A stretch of 34,731 bases of DNA from Ferruginibacter sp. (GTDB lineage: Bacteria; Bacteroidota; Bacteroidia; Chitinophagales; Chitinophagaceae): contig JAGNRZ010000010.1 of the NCBI GenBank assembly GCA_017988335.1, positions 1 to 34,731 on the forward strand. Direction: 5' to 3'. The notes beneath the pieces are model-generated. The model saw only the letters and a list, made by a program, of their open reading frames with translations. It had not been told where the DNA came from and ran no database searches. The translations under genes were made by a program, and so were the position numbers. Within the stretch, counting starts at the first letter, position 1. Every line of letters starts with the position of its first letter. Shown one piece after another: positions 13,509 through 14,333 of the stretch.

Positions 13509-13890
13509 GGGGCTGACCGGTTTTGACAGCATAGATCTTTGTAAGTGTAAGCATGTAGTGCGTTGGATAATTAGCACTTTAATCAGAATATTCAACCTTT
13601 CAAATGGCAATACTCAGTATGCCATGGCTGCTTAATCGATAGATTAGCATCCATTAGGGCCGCCGAGCAGGTTTACCTTTTACCAAGCTCCGCCGCCGAC
13701 TCAAAAACAAAAAAGGTTGCTGCAATAGAATGATGTGACTATTGTTTAAGCTCCCCGAATTTTCGGGGCATCTAAGGAAGTAATTGGTGTGTTTGGCTCC
13801 TGCTATTTCTCTACAATTAATGCCAAAATAAACATGTAGAAAGCTTATAACGAGTATGTTTGGACCAGGGTTCGATTCCCTGCAGCTCCA
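13509..13890 (+). ncRNA. ssrA: tmRNA (transfer-messenger RNA), one-piece
   Basis: The 5' end GGGGCTGACCGG and 3' end CAGCTCC plus discriminator A form the 7-bp tRNA-like acceptor stem. The T-arm CAGGG-TTCGATT-CCCTG is intact. CCA is not encoded. The tag reading frame is 13606-13635: GGC AAT ACT CAG TAT GCC ATG GCT GCT TAA, giving GNTQYAMAA, a typical Bacteroidota tag ending in A-A. A strong CCCCGAA/TTCGGGG pseudoknot hairpin lies near 13754. The last 19 bases, plus the base after them, are duplicated downstream at the far end of the GIY-YIG element. Confidence 0.95.
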
Positions 13891-13891
13891 C
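13872..13891. repeat. Left 20-bp direct repeat (ssrA 3' end)
   Basis: TCGATTCCCTGCAGCTCCAC covers the T-loop to the discriminator base of tmRNA plus one base. An identical copy lies at 14238-14257. This is the usual att location for elements that target tRNA or tmRNA genes. Confidence 0.9.
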
Positions 13892-13945
13892 TTTATCCGC
13901 CATAGCTTTTTTGCCGTAGGCAACAAAAAGCGACGGCGGATATTT
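13892..13945. repeat. Left terminal palindrome (nested hairpin) of the GIY-YIG element
   Basis: The left inverted repeat folds back on itself. TATCCGCC (13894-13901) pairs with GGCGGATA (13935-13942), GCTTTTT pairs with AAAAAGC, and an inner GCC-GTA-GGC forms the tip. The inner TTGCC-GTA-GGCAA part looks like a second palindrome lodged in the loop of the first. It could also act as a terminator for tmRNA. Confidence 0.75.
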
Positions 13946-13967
13946 CATTTTAGAAAACAAACTACCA

Positions 13968-14204
13968 ATGCATTACGTTTATATTTTAGAACTTAGCAAT
14001 GGCGATTATTATAAAGGGTGTACTAATAATATTGAGGAAAGATTAAAACGACATCAAAATGGGCAAGTAGATTCAACAAAAAATTATTTGCCACTTAAAT
14101 TAGTTACCTACACAGTCTTTTGGAATCAGCAAAAAGCTTATGCTTATGAAAAATATTTGAAAAGCGGATCGGGTAGGGCTTTTATGAATCGGCATTTGAT
14201 TTAG
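13968..14204 (+). CDS. Single-domain GIY-YIG endonuclease (UPF0213-like)
   Basis: This 78-residue protein consists of the GIY-YIG nuclease domain only. The GIY strand reads HYVYILEL (Y5), the YIG strand YYKGCTNN (Y15, G17). Catalytic Arg25 is in ERLKRH with H29 after it, and the metal-binding Glu61 is in YEKYLKSGSG. All expected catalytic positions are present, so the enzyme may be active. Such stand-alone domains are widespread in Bacteroidota and mostly uncharacterised. This one lies between terminal inverted repeats in a 346-bp insert at the ssrA 3' end, which makes it the natural candidate for moving or maintaining the insert. Confidence 0.9.
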   Translation: MHYVYILELSNGDYYKGCTNNIEERLKRHQNGQVDSTKNYLPLKLVTYTVFWNQQKAYAYEKYLKSGSGRAFMNRHLI

Positions 14205-14205
14205 G

Positions 14206-14237
14206 TTTCAGCCTACGCTAAAGCTATGGCTGATAAA
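14206..14237. repeat. Right terminal palindrome / inverted repeat of the GIY-YIG element
   Basis: TTTCAGCC and GGCTGATAAA form the outer arms, and GCT-AA-AGC sits inside. Read from the right border inwards, 14237-14211 matches the left end of the element except for one mismatch and a short internal indel. It begins 1 nt after the GIY-YIG stop codon. Confidence 0.8.
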
Positions 14238-14257
14238 TCGATTCCCTGCAGCTCCAC
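14238..14257. repeat. Right 20-bp direct repeat (duplicate of ssrA 3' end)
   Basis: This is an exact copy of 13872-13891. Only these 20 bases of ssrA are repeated; the bases before and after differ from the tmRNA locus. It is therefore a target duplication or att site, not a second tmRNA gene. Confidence 0.9.
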
Positions 14258-14263
14258 AATTTT

Positions 14264-14333
14264 AGTTCATTGTTCATGGTAAATAGTTTATAGTACGAAA
14301 AAACCATGAACAATGATTATTAACAATGAGCTT
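14264..14333. terminator. Heptad-phased inverted repeat between the convergent GIY-YIG and ytxJ genes
   Basis: Consecutive 7-mers AGTTCAT, TGTTCAT, GGTAAAT, AGTTTAT and AGTACGA are followed by the inverted series ATGAACA, ATGATTA and TTAACAA, which enters the ytxJ stop codon. TCATTGTTCATGGT (14267-14280) pairs perfectly with 14303-14316. A bidirectional terminator is the simplest role. Confidence 0.55.

Follow-up and report, generated by a model that had tools for sequence, protein, structure and literature searches.

A 366-bp unit at the 3′ end of the tmRNA gene (ssrA) of Ferruginibacter sp. is, in our judgement, probably a free-standing homing-type selfish element, one of a class specialised in tRNA and tmRNA genes. 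It lies in the window (the whole stretch of 34,731 nucleotides that was analysed), where the following features were located:

13509..13891, + strand: intact tmRNA gene (ssrA), the insertion target (ARAGORN and Rfam calls, 3′ end at 13891/13893)
13872..13891, + strand: 20-bp direct repeat, copy 1, the tmRNA 3′ end from the T-loop onward (repeat search)
13892..13909, + strand: left inverted-repeat arm, TTTATCCGCCATAGCTTT (repeat search; conserved in L218)
13894..13942, + strand: left terminal hairpin, its loop containing a second palindrome, in a terminator-like position (DNA fold)
13968..14204, + strand: solitary GIY-YIG nuclease gene, 78 aa, UPF0213/Slx1-like fold (ORF list, Pfam, AlphaFold2, fold search)
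14208..14233, + strand: right terminal imperfect hairpin (DNA fold)
14220..14237, − strand: right inverted-repeat arm, whose + strand end is GGCTGATAAA (repeat search; conserved in L218)
14238..14257, + strand: 20-bp direct repeat, copy 2 (repeat search)
14267..14316, + strand: perfect 14-bp inverted repeat 3′ of the element (repeat search)

The tmRNA gene is contiguous over 13509–13891 in both the ARAGORN and Rfam calls. The two copies of the 20-bp repeat are identical, with a spacer of 346 bp and a start-to-start distance of 366 bp, and the 18-nt inverted arms, matched at 17 of 18 positions (94% complementary), abut both copies without a gap. The left hairpin is strong (DNA fold z = −5.4, equalled by 0 of 200 shuffles), and the right hairpin is weaker (z = −2.0, with 7 of 200 shuffles as good). 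Within the loop of the left hairpin a nested hairpin is centred around TTTTGCCGTAGGCAACAAAA; it is absent from L218, a related locus described below. The perfect inverted repeat downstream of the element is probably the original tmRNA hairpin, displaced.

The preliminary description of this DNA had pointed to a 346-bp segment between exact copies of the ssrA 3′ end, to inverted termini touching these copies, to an ssrA kept whole, and to a 78-residue GIY-YIG protein with its catalytic residues as the sole gene, with neither transposase nor integrase; the repeat search, the tmRNA calls, the ORF list, Pfam and the conservation of these residues across homologues bear it out on each point. It had also named chance repeats and unrelated REP copies as the readings that would speak against mobility. 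When the 1.1-kb region was shuffled 2000 times by mononucleotides, an exact direct repeat of even 14 bp or more arose in only 11 shuffles; a 20-bp repeat is therefore unlikely to have arisen by chance, and chance repeats were ruled out on these shuffles. Counting exact matches only, the terminal core GCYRTAGCTTTAGCG occurs at 2 places in the 3.08-Mb genome (G000), one of them the element itself, and chance copies of an abundant REP were rejected on this count. A DNA transposon or insertion sequence was set aside in that the unit, its inverted termini notwithstanding (kept in L218), contains no transposase; an integrative element, in that no integrase gene lies within the unit; and a group I intron, in that nothing interrupts the tmRNA and no intron in the window reaches the Rfam gathering score.

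The nuclease and its neighbouring RNA genes

The product of the ORF at 13968–14204, the only listed ORF of at least 50 aa wholly inside the insert, matches the Pfam family GIY-YIG (E = 3.6e-13). Residues Y15, G17, R25 and E61 are invariant, and Y5 nearly so, in an alignment of 16 homologues (L016, which contains a stop, was omitted). The AlphaFold2 model of the 78-aa protein has a mean pLDDT of 94.9, and its best fold matches among solved structures, which the protein is predicted to resemble, are UPF0213 (1zg2) and Slx1 (6seh and 7cq3, whose titles refer to the processing of branched DNA). Among the named families of NCBIfam and PHROGs, the window protein matches none at E 0.001. We know of no tRNA-targeting element described with a UPF0213/Slx1 nuclease. 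Outside its 78 aa the protein has no DNA-binding domain, which counts against a homing reading. Values of dN/dS lie between 0.04 and 0.20 in 12 of 14 nuclease pairs, the exceptions being one very close pair (1.1 on five changes) and one saturated pair; judged by these ratios, the nuclease is under purifying selection.

A protein search of the window genome gave three matches to the nuclease, including L003, where tRNA-Met lies 5′ of the gene and the 3′ end of this tRNA recurs with its terminator 3′ of the gene, and L002, where it lies between inverted repeats without a tRNA. Nuclease matches are present in 28 of 59 genomes of the genus, many of them adjoining tRNA genes, and, with the 16-row profile, in 215 of 294 genomes of the family. 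Among 89 top-ranked family loci (top-ranked profile matches, with tandem neighbours mostly skipped and weaker matches left out; 88 are distinct, L123 and L141 being one locus counted twice), a tRNA gene lies within 300 bp of the best nuclease match in 73, on the same strand in 73/73, upstream in 47 and downstream in 26. In the phylum, the profile search matched 197 of 296 genomes; at 19 of 28 loci outside the family the nuclease and a tRNA gene are no more than 300 bp apart, and the two share a strand in all 19. A scan of named genomes with the window protein and its 74% relative yielded 62 loci spanning Bacteroidota, candidate phyla (Levy-, Kaiser-, Amesbacteria and others), Omnitrophota, Planctomycetota and further groups, including Verrucomicrobiota, Lentisphaeria and Alphaproteobacteria; in 33 of the 62, many in other phyla, a tRNA or tmRNA gene lies within 300 bp on the same strand. 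The assumed baseline for such proximity is 1.4–1.8% (45–60 tRNA genes in 3 Mb), and the control gene ytxJ had a tRNA in 0 of 11 loci. Counting against the association are the loci without an intact tRNA or tmRNA gene within 300 bp (16/89 in the family, 9/28 in the phylum and 29/62 among the named loci). Three of the 33 named loci near an RNA gene, L228, L268 and L277, have a GIY-YIG gene behind tmRNA, in Lentisphaeria, Roizmanbacteria and Phycisphaerae MAGs.

The search for GIY-YIG genes of the same size near RNA genes, suggested at the outset, thus returned many beside tRNA and some beside tmRNA. The proposal of a new class of small gene-targeting element survives in so far as the unit appears mobile, gene-targeting and equipped with a single-domain nuclease; it belongs, however, to a large class whose members are tied to many tRNA genes. 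As more than 100 relatives of the element adjoin tRNA genes in many bacteria, the class looks like widespread, little-noticed selfish DNA. A passive passenger near an integrase was rejected, there being no integrase in the unit and the tRNA association spanning phyla.

The nuclease tree tracks tRNA identity. With 20 tRNA labels on 123 rows, 34 label changes are needed (least possible 19), compared with a mean of 92 for shuffled labels, of which 0/200 were as low as 34; the host-genus label on the same tree (41 genera) needs 69 changes (least possible 40), a figure not directly comparable with that for the tRNA label. A single branch (support 79, not starred) separates all 22 tRNA-Met rows, which come from 17 genera, from the other rows; the tree was built from only 75 columns, and many of its forks are unresolved. 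L026, L099 and L123 were left out as repeats of other rows. Labels were assigned from the longest tRNA match nearby, and rows such as L080, L081, L124 and L129 are thereby labelled by a neighbouring tRNA-Ser, the nuclease there adjoining tRNA-Pro. The window nuclease is 53–61% identical to those of five CPR MAG loci at tRNA-Ser genes and 32–43% identical to 14 of the 15 other family rows of the 16-row alignment; closer relatives than the CPR loci are L005 (62%) and L218 (71%). It also groups with the CPR rows (SH-aLRT 84, not starred) in a small tree of 47 of 122 rows (L001, L005 and 45 taken at random) and 24 of the 62 named loci, with stops replaced by X and L004 left out, L217 being the same locus.

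Shared termini and empty loci

As far as sequence comparison supports it, the strongest evidence for a mobile gene-targeting element is provided by L218, a locus in a Chitinophagaceae MAG whose nuclease, 71% identical to that of the window, sits in tRNA-Val. L218 shares with the window the left end TTTA(T/A)CCGCCA(T/A)AGCTTT and the right end CAGCCTACGCTAAAGCT..GGCTGATAAA, and the element is followed by GGTTCGACTCCGGTAACCTCCAC, the tRNA-Val 3′ end. The same termini are thus combined with different target-derived repeats, which fits the prediction for a mobile gene-targeting unit; on its termini, one element type is found in two target genes. At the place of the left hairpin L218 has a plain hairpin and then T-runs, and in L218, L168 and L187 the hairpin after the RNA gene resembles, by eye, the terminator of that gene. 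In these three loci, again by eye, the nuclease is flanked by tRNA-derived sequence and palindromes, not by the window's terminal inverted repeat (TIR). The transposon-like ends proposed for the unit are hairpins; terminal inverted repeats are present, also in L218.

A sister element at tRNA-Met is present or absent at one orthologous locus in genus g71. The locus is empty in G636, with a single tRNA-Met, no nuclease and no remnant, and the flanks of G636 and G206 are 84% identical over ∼2.2 kb upstream and 82% over 0.8 kb downstream. The orthologous locus holds one nuclease gene with remnants in G206, three nuclease genes in G128, two in G309 and one in G344. In G638 and G265 the contig ends before the tRNA, and G635 and G639 have one nuclease gene each at loci that are partly readable. 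G637 (L293) has two tRNA-Met genes and one palindrome remnant without a nuclease, and is a probable relic after nuclease loss. Two observations count against the homing reading: the resident intact tRNA retains the putative target, and the tRNA-Met anticodon arm, compared by eye, is identical in G636 (empty) and G128 (occupied). Self-protection by a recoded resident tRNA was rejected, the tRNA-Met anticodon arm showing no such difference by eye.

The tmRNA exceeds the cut-off in 46 of the 59 genomes of the genus, and among the 37 of these 46 tmRNAs that were delimited by ARAGORN a doubled 3′ end is found in the window only (three others are flankless). A nuclease relative is present at one of the 45 other ssrA loci, L004 in G009, where a second repeat is absent. 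The preliminary description had looked to empty ssrA sites for support; this expectation was borne out for the sister element, with its empty ortholog at tRNA-Met, but the ssrA loci of the genus yielded no empty site that kept both flanks. In G042 only the left flank is shared (the N-terminal part of an S46 peptidase is 94% identical in amino acids, and the tmRNA 89%), the right flank differs and ytxJ lies on another contig; in G057 a stretch of ∼0.86 kb with a different sequence separates ssrA from ytxJ.

tRNA remnants, palindromes and tandem arrays

Of 117 loci, 102 contain, near the nuclease, extra fragments (at least 17 nt) of the adjoining tRNA that do not belong to an intact gene, compared with 1 of 117 when a tRNA of another amino acid was the query; with a lower cut-off of at least 13 nt, a remnant was found in 104 of 118 loci. 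The 118-locus count left out L026, L099, L123, L166, L170, L172 and L203 as well as loci without an intact tRNA within 450 bp, and the 117 loci are those of the 118 other than the tmRNA locus. Two layouts recur. In one, which the window shares, the intact RNA gene is followed by a terminator, the nuclease and a 3′ remnant; in the other, a 5′ remnant precedes the nuclease and the intact tRNA comes after it. Remnants of the same extent recur across genera: a 27-nt tRNA-Met 3′ remnant in 12 loci (11 genera), a 17-nt Arg(ccg) 5′ remnant in 8 loci (7 genera), a 22-nt Arg(tct) remnant in 8 loci (6 genera) and a 38-nt Asp remnant in 5 loci. Of 101 loci, 81 have their breaks in a cloverleaf loop or in the variable region, versus ∼60 expected if uniform, the loci not being independent of one another.

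In the remnants, read by eye, a G+C palindrome often lies exactly at the break, as in the D-loop break CAATG|CCCGCCCGGCTGACGCCAGTCGGACGGG|GATAG of L106. The palindrome TCCGCCNNNTGGCGGA is dispersed, with 24–135 strand hits per genome in seven g71 genomes (reversed control 0). These palindromes, which resemble arm-loop insertions, and this dispersal favour an alternative that we consider unlikely: the nuclease may mobilise palindromic repeats into hairpin loops, including tRNA arms, its own gene travelling between two palindromes in the manner of REP/RAYT. In REP/RAYT systems (REPtrons) a small nuclease-like gene lies between inverted palindromes, and the RAYTs are Y1-HUH proteins. The element has the small nuclease gene between inverted palindromes in common with them; however, its protein is GIY-YIG and its main link is to tRNA. 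REP/RAYT proper was rejected, the protein being GIY-YIG, not Y1-HUH, and exact core copies few in G000. The palindrome-mobilising alternative is further favoured by a separate GIY-YIG clade without a tRNA label (L002, L015, L018, L019 and L186; SH-aLRT 100). The gene is between inverted copies of a GAGCTTGTCGAAG-type repeat in L002, L018 and L019, and L015 has an exact copy only downstream; L002, L018, L019 and in part L015 look like a REP-nuclease pair. Set against this alternative are the occurrence of the window's terminal core at only 2 exact places, the mere 3 strand hits of TCCGCCNNNTGGCGGA in G000, the agreement of the nuclease tree with tRNA identity, and G636, which has 40 strand hits of TCCGCCNNNTGGCGGA and yet a tRNA-Met locus without nuclease.

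Tandem arrays are common among the nuclease loci. G026 has an array of five 365-bp units, and in L168 a single intact tRNA-Met is accompanied by three 5′ remnants and by three nuclease genes, with a 3′ remnant after every one of these genes. Such arrays, the purifying selection on the nuclease and the precedent of SegB amplification in phage T6 (PMC13096335) would suit a nuclease kept for the host, acting through copy-number change at tRNA loci or on tRNA transcripts (in dosage, stress or defence). We regard this as improbable. The arrays of L168, L187 and L167 hold only one intact tRNA copy, the others being broken, so functional dosage is not raised there, and in a congener the orthologous locus at tRNA-Met is empty; L013 and L109, with two or more intact tRNA copies, are in favour of a host benefit. 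In L168, L187 and L167 the 5′ tRNA remnants stand in tandem upstream of the intact tRNA with periods of ∼87–110 and spacers with GTTCTT. The prediction of nested insertion, that 5′ remnants equal nuclease copies in number, held in 25 of 33 loci (permutation 1e-4), 19 of these 25 equal loci being one and one; over all 80 loci the correlation is weak (rho 0.18, p = 0.11). The array sequences of L167 and L187 fit separate amplification of upstream and downstream units equally well as nested insertion.

Integrative elements at tRNA and tmRNA 3′ ends are flanked by a direct repeat of the RNA-gene 3′ end, and the gene stays whole. The direct repeat and the intact RNA gene of the window follow this pattern, as in the att sites of integrases, and an integrase acting in trans could have inserted a non-autonomous element of small size at the 3′ end of ssrA. 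We give this little credence: the 366-bp unit is integrase-less, its relatives break at D-, anticodon and T-loop positions and leave both 5′ and 3′ remnants, and the same nuclease family is involved each time, a link that would be unexpected for a passenger. The fragments mostly correspond to the local tRNA, a pattern equally compatible with local duplication and homing, and arrays have near-constant periods, but tandem duplication by replication slippage with the nuclease as a chance neighbour is scarcely believable given the same-strand link to one gene family across phyla, the tRNA-specific clades and the termini conserved in two targets.

Proposed mechanism and known systems

For the homing-type reading preferred here, we infer DNA cleavage, its site, repair-driven copying and a role for the palindromes. 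The bare GIY-YIG domain would cut an uninterrupted tRNA or tmRNA gene at an arm loop, here the tmRNA T-loop, and repair of the break from an element-bearing copy would insert the target 3′ end, a hairpin, the nuclease gene and a second hairpin. The RNA gene would thereby be rebuilt from the host 5′ part and the 3′ end of the element, the host's own 3′ end being moved downstream to become the second repeat. Under this model 13872..13891 would be the copy supplied by the element, and 14238..14257 the displaced 3′ end of the target gene itself. Re-cutting and unequal repair between repeats would then generate tandem arrays and pseudo-tRNA remnants. Because the protein is close to a bare catalytic domain and Slx1, one of its neighbours in fold, works on branched DNA, one might naturally guess that the nuclease recognises extruded tRNA arms.

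A more specific version, ‘cut and rescue’, is offered tentatively, as possible rather than probable. A structure-reading GIY-YIG nuclease of 70–80 aa would cut essential tRNA and tmRNA genes at arm loops and spread by restoring the RNA gene; it would occur widely in Bacteroidota, with candidate phyla sharing it, and the palindromes and pseudo-tRNA arrays would be scars of repeated attack. The elements of the class would count as some of the smallest selfish elements that are self-contained, common across a phylum, directed at essential RNA genes, with nuclease evolution tied to tRNA identity, and a source of the broken tRNA copies, tandem arrays and palindromes near tRNA genes. The neighbouring tRNA may allow the target of these tiny natural nucleases to be predicted, and the persistence of free-standing homing genes in bacterial chromosomes would become directly testable.

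By analogy, the architecture is closer to fungal mitochondrial mORF/homing elements and phage SegB than to a transposon. SegB of phages T4 and T6 is a free-standing GIY-YIG homing endonuclease encoded beside phage tRNA genes, in phages that infect several host phyla, Bacteroidota included; its cleavage is implicated in tRNA regions, and it drives tandem amplification of the tRNA-segB segment (PMC13096335, Chihara et al. 2026). The GIY-YIG gene beside tRNA genes and the tandem amplification are common to both. In contrast to the element, SegB is phage-borne and shows no preference among isotypes, and target-restoring tRNA repeats or palindrome-broken copies are not described in the accessible part of that report; the element resides in bacterial chromosomes, encodes a bare domain of 70–80 aa, forms tRNA-specific clades and has tmRNA as a target. 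The mORFs of fungal mitochondria, found in atp6, atp9, cox2 and nad3, consist of an endonuclease gene and a replacement 3′ end in the 3′ part of the target gene, the native end being displaced downstream (PMC3630166, Beaudet et al. 2013). They too place a nuclease gene with a replacement end in the 3′ part of an essential gene, but they occupy mitochondrial protein genes, and their inserted and native ends diverge, whereas the element occupies bacterial RNA genes and the ends in the window are identical.

GIY-YIG genes beside phage tRNAs, and elements of an endonuclease with a gene end in fungal mitochondria, are thus already in print. A chromosomal tRNA-linked GIY-YIG element is not named in the titles or abstract starts among the matches listed from the open-access literature (preprints excluded), and in the accessible part of PMC1564403 tRNA is mentioned 3 times, never for a link to GIY-YIG. 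As far as these searches show, among the matches listed, chromosomal GIY-YIG elements of 70–80 aa that sit in tRNA and tmRNA genes and are accompanied by broken tRNA copies are apparently undescribed.

Further observations concern ssrA itself. The tag peptide of the window tmRNA is GNTQYAMAA. A palindrome, CCCCGAATTTTCGGGG, is present at 13753–13768 of this tmRNA, where eight aligned relatives are ∼12 bases shorter; from this alignment it is probably an insertion within the tmRNA gene itself. At L004 (G009), a long array of short AAAATTCGCTTTCGCGG-type units occupies positions 1420–1760 between ssrA and the GIY-YIG gene.
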